Source: Prevotella sp.
Lineage (GTDB): Bacteria; Bacteroidota; Bacteroidia; Bacteroidales; Bacteroidaceae
Direction: 5' to 3'
Assembly (NCBI GenBank): GCA_017554105.1
Contig: JAFZIY010000027.1
Coordinates: 55,525-119,524 of the forward strand
Length of the DNA stretch: 64,000 nucleotides
Within the stretch, counting starts at the first letter, position 1; every line of letters begins with the position of its first letter. The translations under genes were made by a program, and so were the position numbers. The notes under the pieces are model-generated. The model made no database searches. It was given only the letters and a program-made list of their open reading frames with translations, and had not been told where the DNA came from. Shown piece after piece: positions 1 to 64,000 of this stretch.

Positions 1-3000
1 TCCTCGGCTGCTCCGCCGGGGCGTGGGCAATAGAACAGGATTCCGAAGGGTATTATCTCATCGGGTCAGTACAGGACTGGGAAGACTTTTCCGCAATAGT
101 TAAAACCACCAACAATGCTAATGCCAAGATGATTGCTGACGTTGACCTCGGCGACTGTCAGGCAAAATTAGGTCATCCTAATGAGAATCGTCCTTCTTTT
201 TATTTCAAAGGTGAGTTTGATGGTCAAGGATATACATTGACGGTACATTATATTCAAGATCTAACGAACAGCAATGCAATATCTTCCCCATTCCCGAATA
301 TATCAGGAGCCACCATTAAGAATTTGCATATTGACGGCACATTGGAAAATAGCACAAGCAGTCAGCCTGCGCCAATTGGTATCTGCCGAAGCGGAACAAG
401 CACCGTTGAAAATGTGTGGAGTTCCCTTGTCACGACAGACACCAGAACAGGTTGGGACGAAGCCGCGGCTTTAGTGGGGTGCGTTGATGGTTATACGGGT
501 GGCAACCTCATCATGAAAAACTGCCTCTTCACGGGCACTGTCAATAGTAGCGGCAGTTATAATGGATGCTTTGTAGGATATATCAATAGTGGGGGTAGTG
601 CTACAATAACCAACTGTCTGTCATTAGGAACGTTTAACTATACGGGTGGCAGTTATGGTTTTAGAGGTACCCATACCAATTGCTATGTATCGTCATTCCC
701 TGCAACATTCCCGTCGGGCGTGACAGAGGCTACTGATGAAAGTCTCGCCGACGGCACCATCGCTACAGCCCTCGGTGATGCATGGGTGCAAGACCCGGGA
801 ACTGGCCTGCCGATGCTGAAGATTTTCACTACGATGAGACAAGACGAGGATGGATATTATCTTATCGGTTCTGTAACAGACTGGAGAAGATTTGCCGCTA
901 TCGTTGAAACTACACCGACAGCAAATGCAAAAATGATAAGAGATGTTGATTTGGGCGATGACCAGACGATGATTGGTACCTCTACTACGAAATATCAAGG
1001 TACATTCGATGGCCAAGCCTATACACTGACTGTTAATTATTCTGGTAGTTCCGAACAATTTATAGCACCATTCCATCATGTTGATGGGGGAACTATCATT
1101 AATTTACGGATTGATGGAATCGTTTCATCTTCAAGCGTACACCTCTCAGGACTCATTGGCAAGGCCTATAATGAAGTTACTATAGAGAACTGCCTGGTTG
1201 CTGCAGAAATAAAGATGTACAGTGATTACGCTGGTGGTTTCGTGGGCAACGGTGGTTCACAAAGGTTTGACGATTCGTCAAAAGTTGTATTTAAGAACTG
1301 TTTGTTTGCAGGAACTTTTACCGGTGTAGGAGGTTCTCGTAATAATGCTGCTGGATTCTATGGATGGGGTGCAAGTACTCCTGTGTTTATTAATTGCTTA
1401 GAGAACGGCACTTTTAATAATGTTTCAGATTATAATCCTTTCATGTATGAGGGTACAGATAGGGATAATACCGAAACAACCGCCAACTCTTATTATAAAC
1501 ATGGAAGCATTAATTTAGAAGGAATAAGCGATGCTTCTGCCATGACTGACGGAGAGATTGTGAGCAACCTTGGCGACGCTTGGGTGCAAGACGCAATATT
1601 GAACATGCCGATGCTGAAGATTTTCGCGAACCCTGCTATCGAATATTTCCTCATCGGTTCTTTACAAGACTGGAAGGACTTCGCCGAGTTAGTTGAAACC
1701 GTGCCAACGACTAACGGTAAGTTGATTGCTGATGTTGACTTGGGCGATGACCAGACAATGGTAGGAAGTATAGCATCCCCCTATCAAGGCCTATTTGACG
1801 GACAGGGATACACGCTGACGGTTAACTATGATATGAGTTTGACAACATCGGCAGTTGCCCCCTTTACTGTTGTAGGCAATGCAACGATTCAAAAACTTCA
1901 CGTGGATGGAAGCATAAAACAGCAATATTGTGCCGCCGGAGGTGTTGTTGGATCTATCATGGGCAACGTAACCATAAAAGAATGTTGGGTTTCCGCCTAT
2001 ATGTATGTACAGGGATCTGGGAATCTTCAAGGAACTATCGGCGGTATTGCGAGTTGCTGCGATAACTCAAATGCAAGGGATTGTAGCATTCTGATTGAAG
2101 ACTGTGTGTTCTCAGGAGAAATGGCTACCGGTTACCATTGCGGCAGTATTATGTCGCATGTGAACGGAGACTATGGAAATTCTGCAACCATTAAGAATTG
2201 CCTCTCCATAGGCACCTACGCTTCTGCCATTGGAAGCACAGGAACCTTTATTAGGACTGGAGTACAAGGAGATCCTTATACTATTGAAAATTGTTATTAT
2301 GAGACTCCATGGGGAGCCGTGCAAGGTACGCAAGCCACAGCAGAAGAACTCGCCGATGGCACTACCGCTGCCTCTCTTGGCAACGCCTGGATGCAAGACC
2401 CGAACAAAAACCTGCCTCTGCCGAAAATCTTCGTAAAACCAAATGCAGAAGCACTGGATGGACTTTTCACTATCAATGCTAGTGGAGAAGAAGTTGTATT
2501 CGCACAAGGAAATTTGCAGAAATTAGGTAACATGTACCAATTTGCAAAGAACCAATATGATTACTTCGGTACAGATCAGTCTGATACGCATCGTGATATG
2601 TTTGCATTCTTAGATTACAACAATCCCGCTGTTGATGAGCCTTGGTCCATGCTGTCCCATGATGAATGGAAATACCTGTTAATCACTCGCAGTGTCACAA
2701 ACACCCTTTCTGCTGATGCCAGATTCACCATGGCCACACTTGGTGACACATACAAAGGCTTGATTATCTTCCCTGATTACTATGAGCATCCCGAAGGAAC
2801 TGGATTCATAGCAGGTGTATTCAATAGCAATTCCAATTACACGGCCCAAGTCAGTCTTGAAGGCTGGGCATTGATGGAGGCTGCTGGTTGTGTGTTCCTG
2901 CCTGCCGCAGGTTATCGTTCTTATACGGGAACTTGGTATGGTGTAGGTGAAGAGATAGGCTATATGAGTTGCACTGAACATCCCAAATACATTTCCACCT

Positions 3001-3692
3001 ATTTTACTCCTTATATCACGCCAGATGGAGTTTATGTGGACGAGACAAGTAATAAACGAACATGGACTTCCATTCGTTTGGTATTGCGAAAGCAGCCGAT
3101 AACTTACACTGTACCCGCAAGCGGTGTAGGCACATTCAGTTCCACGGAGAATATCCTTTTGCCCGAAGGACTCAATGCTCACTACTGCAAGACCTATTAT
3201 GCAGAAAGAAGTGCCATAAGTGTGGTGAATATCAGCGGTAGCGTGGTGCCTGCCAATACTGGCGTTCTACTTTCGGGCACGCCGGGTGAGGCGTTCGTGC
3301 TGTATCCTACCAATGAACCAGCCGACGACTTGGAAGGAAATGCCTTGGTAGCCGTGACAGAGTCGAAGCATATTAATGCTGTGGATGGCGACTATACCAA
3401 CTTCATTATGAAGGGAGGTAAGTTCGAGAAGGTTCTTGATGAGGACGAGTCGGTTATGATGCCTGCTCATAGGGCTTATCTGCCGCTGCTCACTTCAGAG
3501 GTGGCTAATGCCAAGTTCGTGGGCATTATCTGGGACGACGACACCGTGACAGGACTTGACGGTGTTCCTACTGACGACAACCGTGAGAACCGCTATGGCG
3601 ACGGCACCATCTATAACCTGCAGGGACAGAAGGTGGATAACCCGACTCGCGGAATCTATATCATTAACGGAATGAAAGTTGTAATAAAATAA
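1..3692 (+). CDS. Large repeat-containing surface protein with T9SS-like C-terminus (5' partial)
   Basis: The reading frame is open from nucleotide 3, so the start lies before the window; about 1229 residues are visible. The first residues (LGCSAGAWA, then IEQDSEGYY) look like the end of a signal peptide. Three tandem modules of about 264 residues follow. Each opens with (Y)(F/Y)LIGSxxDWxxFA at about nt 49, 846 and 1638, continues with DVDLGDDQTM and YQGxFDGQxYTLTVNY, then GLUG-like repeats (NCLFxGT, GGxVG), and closes with LGxAWxQDPxxxLPMLKIF. From about nt 2460 a different domain begins (FAQGNLQ, FAKNQYDYFG) that resembles a domain common in Bacteroidales surface proteins. The last 30 residues (YNLQGQKV, RGIYIINGMKVVIK) resemble a T9SS sorting domain. 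The product is probably exported to the cell surface. The ligand is unknown, though adhesion or glycan contact is plausible. A small gene follows after 3 bp. Confidence 0.85.
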   Translation, partial: LGCSAGAWAIEQDSEGYYLIGSVQDWEDFSAIVKTTNNANAKMIADVDLGDCQAKLGHPNENRPSFYFKGEFDGQGYTLTVHYIQDLTNSNAISSPFPNISGATIKNLHIDGTLENSTSSQPAPIGICRSGTSTVENVWSSLVTTDTRTGWDEAAALVGCVDGYTGGNLIMKNCLFTGTVNSSGSYNGCFVGYINSGGSATITNCLSLGTFNYTGGSYGFRGTHTNCYVSSFPATFPSGVTEATDESLADGTIATALGDAWVQDPGTGLPMLKIFTTMRQDEDGYYLIGSVTDWRRFAAIVETTPTANAKMIRDVDLGDDQTMIGTSTTKYQGTFDGQAYTLTVNYSGSSEQFIAPFHHVDGGTIINLRIDGIVSSSSVHLSGLIGKAYNEVTIENCLVAAEIKMYSDYAGGFVGNGGSQRFDDSSKVVFKNCLFAGTFTGVGGSRNNAAGFYGWGASTPVFINCLENGTFNNVSDYNPFMYEGTDRDNTETTANSYYKHGSINLEGISDASAMTDGEIVSNLGDAWVQDAILNMPMLKIFANPAIEYFLIGSLQDWKDFAELVETVPTTNGKLIADVDLGDDQTMVGSIASPYQGLFDGQGYTLTVNYDMSLTTSAVAPFTVVGNATIQKLHVDGSIKQQYCAAGGVVGSIMGNVTIKECWVSAYMYVQGSGNLQGTIGGIASCCDNSNARDCSILIEDCVFSGEMATGYHCGSIMSHVNGDYGNSATIKNCLSIGTYASAIGSTGTFIRTGVQGDPYTIENCYYETPWGAVQGTQATAEELADGTTAASLGNAWMQDPNKNLPLPKIFVKPNAEALDGLFTINASGEEVVFAQGNLQKLGNMYQFAKNQYDYFGTDQSDTHRDMFAFLDYNNPAVDEPWSMLSHDEWKYLLITRSVTNTLSADARFTMATLGDTYKGLIIFPDYYEHPEGTGFIAGVFNSNSNYTAQVSLEGWALMEAAGCVFLPAAGYRSYTGTWYGVGEEIGYMSCTEHPKYISTYFTPYITPDGVYVDETSNKRTWTSIRLVLRKQPITYTVPASGVGTFSSTENILLPEGLNAHYCKTYYAERSAISVVNISGSVVPANTGVLLSGTPGEAFVLYPTNEPADDLEGNALVAVTESKHINAVDGDYTNFIMKGGKFEKVLDEDESVMMPAHRAYLPLLTSEVANAKFVGIIWDDDTVTGLDGVPTDDNRENRYGDGTIYNLQGQKVDNPTRGIYIINGMKVVIK

Positions 3693-3695
3693 GCA

Positions 3696-3944
3696 ATGAA
3701 AAAGAAATATATTTCACCGGAGATAATAGAGGTTGTCGACTTTGGCAATCCGCTACTCGACATCGGAACCACCATCCCAGTGGATACTGGCGGCAGCGGA
3801 GCAAGCCAATCGGGTGCCGAGGCCAAGAGACACGATATGGATGACGATGACGAACTCGGTGAGTTCAACGACAGTATCATCAAGTATCGTCGTGACCCAA
3901 TGGACTTCATCCCAAGGACGTTCACAAAAATGTGGGAAGACTGA
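3696..3944 (+). CDS. Small acidic MKKKYIxP protein, partner of upstream surface protein
   Basis: This 82-residue protein starts MKKKYISPEIIEVVDF, continues into GNPLLDIGTTIPV, then a Gly/Ser/Ala stretch, an acidic run (DMDDDDELGEF) and a final basic-aromatic segment. It has no signal peptide, lipobox or clear membrane helix. Its ATG lies 3 bp after the stop of the T9SS-type protein, so translation is probably coupled. Two more proteins in this window (at 42843 and 63885) share the MKK(K/E)YIxP start, a hydrophobic stretch around residues 11-22 and an acidic C-terminal half, and sit in the same position relative to a large protein of the same type. I recognise no characterised family. Function is unknown. 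Confidence 0.8.
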   Translation: MKKKYISPEIIEVVDFGNPLLDIGTTIPVDTGGSGASQSGAEAKRHDMDDDDELGEFNDSIIKYRRDPMDFIPRTFTKMWED

Positions 3945-40032: not shown

Positions 40033-40280
40033 ACATACACTACACTTTAACCTTTTGTAGCAAAAAGGACACTGTTTTTTTTCCCACTAACAGGTTTCCG
40101 CGTCGGTAAGAACAATGCTTCCGAAAAGTCGAAAAATTGTGTCAGAAGATAAAGATGTATGTTCGTATAATTATTCCTTAATCACTGTTTTTATTGGTGT
40201 TTTTGTTGAAAAAAAACACAAAAGCACCCACGGAAACACAAAAAATAATAAAAAATGTTCTTTATTCAAAATATTAGTAT

Positions 40281-40288
40281 TACATTTG
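40281..40288 (+). promoter_or_regulatory. Promoter -7 element of second surface-protein gene
   Basis: TACATTTG followed by CA, 78 bp before the chosen ATG at 40367. No clear -33 element. The 40033-40280 stretch shows no gene. Confidence 0.5.
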
Positions 40289-40366
40289 CAACGGAAAATG
40301 AGAATAGTATCTGGCGGTTTTTGCACAAAACTACTAAGAAATAGGCAATTAATATCCTTTATTATT

Positions 40367-42832
40367 ATGACGAGAGCATTGTTTTTATCTTATAAATCAG
40401 GTAAGGTTGTAAGTAGGATTGTTTTAATGCTACTTGCTTTTCTTGTAGTTGGCAGCATCCCTGCTATTGCACAAGAACAGCAAACGGAGGAGACACATGC
40501 CCATTCGGCAAGTAAGAAGTGGAAAGGTATAGATGTATCCACAGTCATTGGTCACAGCGAGTATGGTTATGCGGAGGATAATGATTTTGCATCCAAGGCA
40601 AAGATCATCTTCCTGTATAACGTTGGAACAGGTCGCTTCATTATCGAGGGTGGAAACTTTGGTATGGAAGGCCGACTTTTCCACGAGGATTTCGGGCGTC
40701 CTTTGTATTTAACTTCTGACGGATATATTAGGAGTGGCATCACTGAGAAATCAACTAAAAAGTATTTGTTCGGATGTAATGTTCCTGCAGTGTTCCATAC
40801 TCAGCAAAACTGGAACAACTGGAACCAATACAGTTTCACTGTGATGATGGATGCCGACAAATCCAAACACACAAAAGGATGGCAGTTCGAACGAGTGCCG
40901 GGTGAGACCGGTGACACCTACACTTACTACATGTATGAAGAGAAAAGCAACAAAAAGTATTTTCTCGGTGCCGCATGGGGGGAATGTCATGCTGCTGCTT
41001 GGAAAGGAGACGACGTGCTTGTCTTAATGGATGATGACCGTGCCGCATGGACAACCTATGACCCGCGTGGCGAAGATGATAAGTATGAGGTAGACGGTGA
41101 CTCGATTACCTTGGATGAACTATACCAGTGGCGTGTTGTATCGGAAGAGCAATTCATCGAAGCATTATATGATGAGGAGGTCGGTTTGAACCCAAGTATT
41201 TCTATATTTGTGCCCGATCGTGACTTCACACGTAATGCAGAAAACTTTGACACCAACTGGGTGATGGAGAATAAGGAAGGAGTAGATTATACGGATAGAC
41301 GTTATGGATATACTTATGGTGTATACAAGGATAAGAGTACCTATAATAGCGGTTATTATGATAATGAGAAATGGAACAAACCTGTCAGGTTGAAGAATGT
41401 GTTTGATGGTGACCTGGCTTATGGTTGGGAAAACGCTAAAAACGGTTTTCTTTCCTTTGAGGGCATCGGAAGGACCTACGCTTCGTTCAAAGTACCGAAG
41501 GCAGGATGGTATCAGGTGCAGTGTTATGGTTTTGTACAGAGTGACAATGGGCACGATGCTTATCTGTTTGCGAAAGTTGAAGGCGGTGCCGAGGAAACGA
41601 ACAATCTCGTTACCGTTGCTGCAGGAACATACGGGCCTAAGAACGATAAGGCTAAATGCCTTGAAGTGGGTAATTTGCTAAGAAAACCTGCCACAAAGGA
41701 AGCCTTCAAGAACACGGTGTGGATTTGTGTCACCGAAGATGAATTCGAAGGTGGACTAGAACCACGGATGATGGTCGGTGTAGGCAAGGACGAGGCTACA
41801 CAGAGTGCCCCTGTGAGAAATAACAACAAGACCTATTACTATGACACCGACTGGGTTTGTATTGACGATATCCGCGTGACATATTTGGGAACAAGTCCGG
41901 CTTTCTTCTATGAAGAAGAGGAAGACCTCGATTACCTGATTCCTAGTTCGGAAAACACCAAGCAATATGAGACTTCCTCGCCATCGAACTATGGTGCTTC
42001 TGAAGGAAAATATGGTGGAGCAGTTTGCATTGAACGTTCTTTGAAGACGAATCAGTGGAACTCTTTCTCATTCCCGATGCCTCTGACAGGAGAGCAGATG
42101 AGGCATGCATTTGGTGAGGATGCACAGTTGGCGCTCATAGATGGTATCGGCACGATGTCGGGCAATCCTAATGTAATCGACTTCAAGAAGGTGTCTTTAC
42201 GTACCACTGATGCAGTTGTTGAACCAGGACATTTCTATATGCTGAAGCCCACTCAGGCACCAACGACAGGCATCGACCCACAGGGGAATAATACCACTTT
42301 CTATGAACTAGGACGCTTCTTCTTCACGGTGAATGAGAATGAGCCTGCCACCTATACACCTGGCCGTATGAATCTTTCCAAGAAGATGGATAACGAAACT
42401 CAAAAAATAAAGTTACTTGATCCAATCAATGGAGAAATTGTCGGCAAGGCGGGAGTTAACTATGTAAAAACTCCTGGATTTGAAAGTTACCATGCAGGAG
42501 ATGAAGCTGAAGGCATCTATGCTCCTAAGGGTTCTTACGTTGTCAGCGACAACAACATAGTACATCTTAACAAGGATACTAGGATTAAGGGATTCCGTGG
42601 ATGGATAGACCTCTCAGAAGGGGAAGGTGGTAGTTCAAAGGAATACTCTATGGATGTGTTCGGAATGTTCGAAGAGCCTGTGGGTGGTGGCTCTACAGGT
42701 CTTCCACGCATACAACTTTTCAGTGCTGACGAATCTGTATATGATTTGTTTGGACGTAAGGTGGGCACGCTGGGCACAAAACTCCCCAAGGGTATCTACA
42801 TCGTTAAGGGTAAGAAATTTTTGGTAAAGTAG
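40367..42832 (+). CDS. Large secreted protein with T9SS-like C-terminus
   Basis: This 821-residue protein starts with a signal peptide (VVSRIVLMLLAFLVVGSIPAIAQ). The N-terminal half has tryptophan-rich repeats about bound ligand or structure (KYLFGCNVPAVF, KKYFLGAAWGECHAAAWKGDD) and a middle part like a carbohydrate-binding module (GFLSFEGIGRTYASFKVPKAGWYQVQCYGF). The C-terminal 30 residues (YDLFGRKV, LPKGIYIVKGKKFLVK) resemble a T9SS sorting domain. An ATG at 40298 in the same frame is possible, but 40367 leaves a better signal peptide. The MKKEYIxP small gene follows after 10 bp. Function unknown. Confidence 0.83.
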   Translation: MTRALFLSYKSGKVVSRIVLMLLAFLVVGSIPAIAQEQQTEETHAHSASKKWKGIDVSTVIGHSEYGYAEDNDFASKAKIIFLYNVGTGRFIIEGGNFGMEGRLFHEDFGRPLYLTSDGYIRSGITEKSTKKYLFGCNVPAVFHTQQNWNNWNQYSFTVMMDADKSKHTKGWQFERVPGETGDTYTYYMYEEKSNKKYFLGAAWGECHAAAWKGDDVLVLMDDDRAAWTTYDPRGEDDKYEVDGDSITLDELYQWRVVSEEQFIEALYDEEVGLNPSISIFVPDRDFTRNAENFDTNWVMENKEGVDYTDRRYGYTYGVYKDKSTYNSGYYDNEKWNKPVRLKNVFDGDLAYGWENAKNGFLSFEGIGRTYASFKVPKAGWYQVQCYGFVQSDNGHDAYLFAKVEGGAEETNNLVTVAAGTYGPKNDKAKCLEVGNLLRKPATKEAFKNTVWICVTEDEFEGGLEPRMMVGVGKDEATQSAPVRNNNKTYYYDTDWVCIDDIRVTYLGTSPAFFYEEEEDLDYLIPSSENTKQYETSSPSNYGASEGKYGGAVCIERSLKTNQWNSFSFPMPLTGEQMRHAFGEDAQLALIDGIGTMSGNPNVIDFKKVSLRTTDAVVEPGHFYMLKPTQAPTTGIDPQGNNTTFYELGRFFFTVNENEPATYTPGRMNLSKKMDNETQKIKLLDPINGEIVGKAGVNYVKTPGFESYHAGDEAEGIYAPKGSYVVSDNNIVHLNKDTRIKGFRGWIDLSEGEGGSSKEYSMDVFGMFEEPVGGGSTGLPRIQLFSADESVYDLFGRKVGTLGTKLPKGIYIVKGKKFLVK

Positions 42833-63645: not shown

Positions 63646-63885
63646 TTATTCCAAGCCCCATTTGGAGTCTTTGCTCATTTCCATTTCCAGGTCTTTGAAG
63701 TTGTTGTAACTCATTCCTTCGTCATCATTAACAAGACCGTCGTGCCCTTTTGCGTCACCAAAACCTGGATCATCACCTCCAGCGGCTCCATGGCTCCAGG
63801 TGTCGTATCCGCCATTGTCAAGTACTGATGAGAAGAGATTGACAGTTACTGTATGTGTTTCAGGAATTATATATTTCTTTTTCAT
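63646..63885 (-). CDS. Small acidic MKKKYIxP protein, partner of upstream surface protein
   Basis: This 79-residue protein starts MKKKYIIPETHTVTVNLFSS, continues VLDNGGYDTWSHGAAGGDD and has an acidic C-terminal half (NDDEGMSYNNFKDLEMEMSKD). ATG 63885 is preferred to 63900 because it gives the same start as the two other members. It begins 26 bp after the stop of a large protein with a T9SS-like C-terminus. Spacing of hydrophobic and acidic parts resembles the partner at 3696. Function unknown. Confidence 0.78.
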   Translation of the reverse strand: MKKKYIIPETHTVTVNLFSSVLDNGGYDTWSHGAAGGDDPGFGDAKGHDGLVNDDEGMSYNNFKDLEMEMSKDSKWGLE

Positions 63886-63911
63886 AATTCTTCTATTCAA
63901 ACGTCATTTAA

Positions 63912-64000
63912 TTATTTAATATAAACTTTCTTCCCATCTTTGATGTAAATGCCTCTTGCAGATGGTTTACCGTTGAGTTTCTGGCCATTCAGGTTATACC
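63912..64000 (-). CDS. C-terminus of a third T9SS-type surface protein (partial)
   Basis: Only the last 29 codons are inside the window. They encode YNLNGQKLNGKPSARGIYIK followed by DGKKVYIK and stop, the same pattern as the other two T9SS-like C-termini here (Y(N/D)L.G(Q/R)K ... GIYI..GKK..IK). The bulk of the protein lies beyond the window's right edge. Confidence 0.75.
   Translation of the reverse strand, partial: YNLNGQKLNGKPSARGIYIKDGKKVYIK

Follow-up and report, generated by a model that had tools for sequence, protein, structure and literature searches.

The window, the whole stretch of DNA analysed here, comprises 64,000 nucleotides (C25:55525-119524) of a Prevotella sp. genome of 3.12 Mb in 32 contigs, and its right edge coincides with the end of contig C25. 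Three MKKxYI starts are found in the window, each downstream of a protein with a GIYI..G.K C-terminus. The members of each pair are encoded on the same strand with gaps of 3, 10 and 26 bp, confirming the three pairs of the initial annotation (Table 1).

Table 1. Genes and features of the three pairs, in window positions.
Feature	Position	Strand	Remarks
Cargo 1 (part), large surface protein	129..3692	+	Start left of window; open frame of 1280 aa
Cargo 1 C-terminal tail, YNLQGQKV..GIYIINGMKVVIK, then stop	3597..3692	+	Match to tail profile A1 at C25:59121-59213, E 2.3e-15
Small precursor-like protein 1, 82 aa	3696..3944	+	YxxP at residues 5-8; C-terminus KMWED
Cargo 2, 905 aa, C-terminus GIYIVKGKKFLVK	40115..42832	+	Tail at 42725-42829
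Small precursor-like protein 2, 58 aa	42843..43019	+	No C-terminal Trp
Small precursor-like protein 3, 79 aa	63646..63885	-	MKKxYI start; leader-profile match
Cargo 3 end, 28 residues visible, tail GIYIKDGKKVYIK	63912..64000	-	Contig end

For cargo 1 the listed ORF start at 129 is not the start of the gene, as the frame continues open as far as the left edge, where window positions 3-30 show the last part of a signal-peptide-like stretch. Scans against Pfam and NCBIfam gave no match for this protein. The large proteins had been called otherwise unrelated, which holds for cargo 1 and cargo 2, alike in the tail alone, while cargo 3 can be seen for only 28 residues because the right edge of the window is the contig end. 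Just left of the window, at C25:55174-55416, lies a copy of small protein 1 that is 96% identical and sits behind an almost identical tail; pair 1 and this copy are a recent tandem duplication. At the other end, the tail DNA within window positions 63850-64000 is identical at the start of contig C20 (L384) and at the end of contig C29 (L385), and small protein 3 has its opening codons in common with both. Two homologous cargoes of 1433 and 1544 codons, 42% identical over 1150 columns and nearly identical in their tails, end at the C20 and C29 contig ends, and the assembly has therefore probably collapsed at least two pairs.

Small YxxP genes behind type IX-type tails

Across the source genome MKKxYIxP matches six times, against none in the reversed control, and all six matches are behind a GIYI..GKK-type tail, which is more than chance would give. 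The looser pattern MKKxYxxP gives 12 matches with 11 behind a tail, the twelfth (C13:194795, L109) being antisense to another ORF. A leader profile (A7; 36 rows, seven from the source genome) has 14 matches at E<0.05, every one directly behind a tail, though it misses three of the 17 members seen there (L046, L095 and L107). Viewed from the tails, a profile built from 10 of them finds 53 in the genome, two at contig ends and 51 with readable downstream DNA, and a YxxP ORF follows 17 of the 51. When ATG ORFs of 40-130 aa within 120 bp behind the tails are collected, 17 of the 20 are these YxxP ORFs and three are not. With all 14 leader matches behind tails as against 17 of 51 tails with a YxxP ORF, a member thus implies a tail in the source genome, whereas the converse does not hold.

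The MKKxYxxP pattern is present in 52 of 61 genomes of the family, the source genome included, and small YxxP genes of this kind occur in most of the Prevotella-like genomes classified. From 30 loci of the pattern search and 80 further regions 78 members were retained; L080 was taken out of the set kept by the rule, L076, L123, L131 and L187 were restored to it, and MKKRY matches that looked antisense were mostly left out of the fetched loci. A tail recognised by HMM precedes 53 of the 78 (median distance 31 bp), 13 stand before a lipoprotein-like gene, four are at contig edges and eight are in other settings. The claim that it is the C-terminal domain, and not the cargo, which the small protein accompanies is therefore borne out strongly in the source genome (14/14) and mostly in the relatives (53/78), but not for the 13 that precede a lipoprotein-like gene or for some that lie in a biosynthetic cluster without a tail. 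All five members from SprA-negative genomes (G008 being treated separately) belong to the lipoprotein-associated group, and ten downstream secreted proteins that were scanned gave matches above cut-off to Mfa_like_1 in two and to LTD and LRR_4 in one each.

The association can also be approached from tails chosen by score alone in other genomes. A YxxP ORF lies within 150 bp of seven of 39 such tails as compared with 20 of 1188 other ORFs (p ~1e-5), where the control ORFs come from loci around RRE or kinase genes, so that the 20 include some real members, with seven or more behind tails or tail-like ends. Among the 40 score-picked tails L321 is a pair already known and L348 is cut by a contig end. 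Assignment of the tails to type IX secretion (T9SS) rests on their co-occurrence with SprA and not on the curated TIGR04183 model (T9SS type A), the window tails not being among the 18 matches listed for it. SprA is found in 42 of the 61 genomes, among them the source genome, and profile A1 finds tails in all 42; of the 19 SprA-negative genomes 17 have none, G001 has one and G008 has 79. No SprA match is seen in G008, though sampled relatives in its genus carry SprA; a gap or divergence may lie behind this.

Sequence of the small proteins

Members of the set are 41-74 aa long (74 members, mean 56), with those in the source genome reaching 85 aa. They have in common YxxP near the start, hydrophobic positions, a serine about 19 residues after the tyrosine and an acidic, Gly-rich tail. 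The MKK(K/E)YIxP start first noted in this DNA describes the three window proteins, but the Ile and the MKK vary elsewhere and the constant part is YxxP; the short hydrophobic stretch that was also noted is present, but short. While YxxP in the pattern-based set is there by selection, it is independent in 17 of the 20 ORFs behind tails and in six source-genome members found by position, which keep the Y..P outside MKKxYxxP (MKNLYVKP, MNKKPYTKP, MKRIYIKP, MEKKIYIKP, MNKKIYNSP and MEKRKYLAP). A serine is located at Y+18..20 in 70 of 90 members, the best single offsets being Y+19 (44 members) and Y+20 (28), followed by Y+14 (20). The motif (A/C)xS, which resembles the phosphorylated AQS of LppA, falls at Y+17..19 in 34 of 74 members; none of the remaining offsets between 4 and 39 has it in more than four. 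In the 16 source-genome members the serine is at Y+19 in three and at Y+20 in three, and in the window only small protein 2 has one at the expected offset (KLSGY at Y+17..21, Ser at Y+19), the corresponding residues of small proteins 1 and 3, DIGTT and LDNGG, being without serine. A tryptophan lies within the last 12 residues of 70 of the 90 members.

The small ORFs evolve as proteins under purifying selection, since the pooled pN/pS is 0.43 and pN is below pS in nine of 11 close pairs, and their position is kept among members with identity down to 12%. An AlphaFold monomer of small protein 1 has no fold and is mostly unstructured (pLDDT 66.5, pTM 0.20). Scanning of 74 members against Pfam and NCBIfam yielded single weak matches only and no convincing family. 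On inspection of the small-protein sequences no motif matching a double-glycine/PCAT leader, a lipobox or a Sec signal was seen. One of the weak matches is to the paeninodin lasso family (E 0.014) and YxxP recalls lasso peptide leaders, and on these two grounds the genomes were searched for an RRE.

The RRE, kinase and peptidase operon

The source genome contains exactly one discrete PqqD-type RRE, on contig C31 (PF05402, E 2e-15, above cut-off), where it follows genes for an HprK-like kinase (L198:1799-2704) and a signal-peptidase homologue (2677-3171). Compared with the PDB at E<=0.1, the RRE profile matches four entries only: TfuB1 (6.8e-8), PbaB1 (1.1e-4), TbiB1 (1.4e-4) and LppB (3.1e-3). 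The predicted model (pLDDT 92) has the TbiB1- and TfuB1-leader complexes as its best Foldseek matches; LppB and PbaB1 are not among the best 50. In the kinase the P-loop is invariant, its matches to TIGR04249 and TIGR04352 are below cut-off, and its best PDB match is HPr kinase 1ko7 (E 0.0093), with ABC ATPases next. The peptidase matches the archaeal-type signal-peptidase model TIGR02228 (E 5.5e-5, below cut-off), its homologue in L200 is above the Peptidase_S24 cut-off, and Ser45, His83 and Asp98 are invariant in 12 sequences. Within the 16 kb read around the operon neither an NTP transferase nor an ABC exporter turned up and no lasso cyclase or B2 peptidase was seen, and no small gene adjoins the operon, all 14 leader matches lying elsewhere. 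Beside the kinase, at L198:1269-1802, is a gene for a signal-peptide protein that has no Pfam match; its homologues of ~150-190 aa adjoin the kinase in many Prevotella-like genomes and, in several genomes, a sigma-factor-like gene.

Kinase, peptidase and RRE are found together at 32 of 40 RRE loci and at 64 of 80 named kinase loci, which include Prevotella ihumii, Hoylesella shahii, Alloprevotella, a Muribaculaceae MAG, Sphingobacterium and MAGs titled Fibrobacter succinogenes; in Clostridia MAGs some parts of the cluster are missing. In certain genomes the small genes themselves are linked to this machinery. In L273, from a MAG of an uncultured Prevotellaceae (RUG12019), a tail protein, a small gene, a second tail protein and small gene, the kinase, the peptidase, the RRE and an ABC gene follow one another on one strand; no small gene was seen in L301, which is homologous to it around the cluster. 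L267 and L281 have a tail-like protein followed by one or more small genes, an NTP transferase and the kinase, with a peptidase match and no RRE match, and in L200 an RRE, NTP transferase, kinase, small gene, Mfa_like lipoprotein, peptidase and ABC gene lie within 12 kb. A small gene is also located in or beside the cluster in L217, L373, L380 and L392, and, unlike at the source-genome operon, an NTP transferase and an MsbA-like exporter are present in clusters such as L200, L209, L373 and L376. Under a loose rule, a candidate small gene is seen at only 12 of the 80 named kinase loci, at least two of these being chance-like, so that in most genomes, as in the source genome, the precursors are not at the operon.

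Several neighbouring genes were recorded alongside. In the row at L084/L201 (G023:C7:5269-9163) an RRE, an HprK-like kinase and a peptidase are joined by an MKKIYEKP protein of 148 aa that contains Cys and by a SPASM radical SAM protein; the row may perhaps specify a related peptide with other chemistry. Small WxxP ORFs near the RRE in L206 (G004) and L222 (G024) look like paeninodin-type lasso precursors, and a 193 aa protein with a Cys/Gly-rich C-terminus (L209:9980-10561, G020) lies beside a kinase-peptidase-RRE-ABC cluster. The L199 and L200 clusters also hold what read, on sequence grounds, as capsule-type export and glycosyltransferase genes.

The kinase is present in 47 of the 61 family genomes, and pattern-found members occur in 27 of 38 kinase-positive genomes as compared with one of 12 kinase-negative ones (Fisher p 1.7e-4, indicative only as the genomes are related). 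The count is a hand classification leaving out 11 of the 61 genomes, whose pattern matches were unlisted, and the kinase-positive genomes scored as without a member include G023 and also G006, in which the start of the cluster's small gene differs. An exception is G050 (94% complete), where five members occur and the searches for kinase and RRE found neither. Sampling the order more widely gave the kinase in 22 of 158 genomes, and outside the family MKKxYxxP has no clear enrichment, with ~1-2 matches per genome even in genomes for which the kinase search was negative; the coupling is shown within the family only.

Relation to LPP and other systems

Prochlorosins are a known case of many scattered precursors served by one modifying enzyme. 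Dispersed precursors and one machinery are seen here as well, with other enzymes and another leader, and with the precursors tied to surface-protein genes.

The closest likeness is to the LPP system of Bacillota (LppA/B/K/S/D/N). In that system the precursors are 35-200 aa with a conserved N-terminus, a variable C-terminus and the motif YxxPxVLxHQxIxFETxxS, the YxxP being required for binding to the RRE LppB (PMC13381572). The SipW-like LppS, with the RRE, cleaves after Thr-1 (T|AQS), and the HprK-like LppK phosphorylates Ser3 of the LppA AQS, a Thr in its place not being used (PMC13381572). These clusters sit in polysaccharide loci, and the string 'Bacteroid' is absent from the main text of the paper (PMC13381572).

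Both systems bring together a discrete RRE, an HprK-like kinase and an archaeal-type signal-peptidase homologue, and both have small precursors within the same length range, with a YxxP leader and a variable core; here a serine stands two residues after an Ala or Cys in most relatives. NTP transferase and MsbA-like ABC genes are shared as well, here in the clusters of some relatives only. By the same comparison the source-genome operon differs in having three of the five LPP core genes, and its precursors are scattered outside the operon, most of them behind T9SS-type cargo genes. The full LPP motif is not present, HQ and FET not being conserved, and the serine is at Y+19, one residue later than the Y+18 of LPP. 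The members here further have an acidic core with a C-terminal Trp, and the serine is missing in two of the three window members.

The pairing, the motifs, the family and fold of the RRE and the operon are shown here, as are the linked loci and the cross-genome association between operon and small genes. It would seem likely, from these, that the small proteins serve as precursors in a RiPP pathway of LPP-like, RRE-dependent type, scattered mostly behind T9SS-type cargo genes, with the machinery in the one C31 operon. They look like precursors of trimmed, perhaps phosphorylated peptides that share one enzyme set encoded elsewhere. The initial annotation had suggested an export or folding cofactor, a regulator or a peptide product, and the evidence favours the last because of the YxxP leader, the single RRE of lasso/LPP type accompanied by homologues of the kinase and the leader peptidase, and the serine at the LPP phosphorylation site in most relatives. 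By homology, the RRE would bind the leader via YxxP, the kinase would phosphorylate the serine ~19 residues after the tyrosine where there is one, and the peptidase would presumably cut ~2 residues before that serine, after roughly residue 21. The core, which is acidic and usually has a Trp close to the C-terminus, could then act at the surface together with the neighbouring cargo, which is speculation.

An unprocessed cytosolic escort or folding partner for each secreted protein, possibly binding the C-terminal tail before export, might be expected from the short distance to the tail gene (median 31 bp) and from the acidic, mostly unstructured nature of the small protein. Among known systems, a partner gene directly behind a T9SS cargo is that of SprF, the outer-membrane protein for type B tails and partner of cargo such as SprB, which differs from the small soluble YxxP proteins here. 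An escort is nonetheless unlikely, as 34 of the 51 source-genome tails are without such a gene, 13 of the 78 members are before lipoprotein-like genes with others in RRE/kinase clusters, and both YxxP and the positioned serine would be left unexplained. Just as improbable is that the same leader recognition serves another chemistry, giving some other RRE-dependent product such as a lasso-type (macrolactam) peptide or involving an unrecognised enzyme. The RRE is closest to the lasso RREs TfuB1 and TbiB1, and in L084 a related small gene and then a SPASM radical SAM protein lie beside the RRE, kinase and peptidase; against this, kinase and peptidase adjoin the RRE in 32 of 40 loci. The lasso leader/B1 systems (TfuB1, TbiB1, PbaB1) share the YxxP-type leader and an RRE of the same family and fold, but differ by the lasso cyclase and B2 peptidase, neither of which was seen beside the C31 operon in the DNA read.

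It is very unlikely that tail and small gene merely travel as a block, the association then reflecting duplication and not function: pair 1 does have its adjoining 96% copy and the homologous C20 and C29 cargoes do end in nearly identical tails, but members down to 12% identity keep their position across many genera of the family and the small ORFs are under purifying selection. A cargo-specific immunity or inhibitor protein, as a small acidic gene directly behind a large secreted protein might suggest, is hardly credible given a conserved N-terminal leader with a variable remainder, diverse cargoes of which many similar ones have no small gene, and small genes that also occur without such a cargo.

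Returning to the LPP-like reading, we suggest tentatively, and with some doubt, that each of many T9SS surface proteins has an RRE-dependent peptide of its own encoded with it, that the one operon trims and phosphorylates these peptides, and that the phosphate couples the core either to the cargo or to glycan at the surface; the peptide might thereby decorate, anchor or gate its particular surface protein. The glycan link is suggested by the capsule-type and glycosyltransferase genes in L199 and L200 together with the placing of the Bacillota LPP clusters in polysaccharide loci. The chemistry would be of a class already known, LPP-like, if the reading holds. What is new, as far as the literature searches go, is that the precursors are dispersed and that they are tied to surface genes, both of T9SS type and of lipoproteins; no link between RiPP biosynthesis and type IX-secreted or lipoprotein surface proteins was found in those searches. 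If the reading is correct, small YxxP genes without a convincing Pfam or NCBIfam family would gain a pathway and LPP-type peptides would extend beyond the described Bacillota clusters. The role of the HprK-like kinase and signal-peptidase homologue next to the RRE in Bacteroidota would become testable, and RiPP biosynthesis would be linked to the type IX-secreted and lipoprotein surface proteins of the surface coat.
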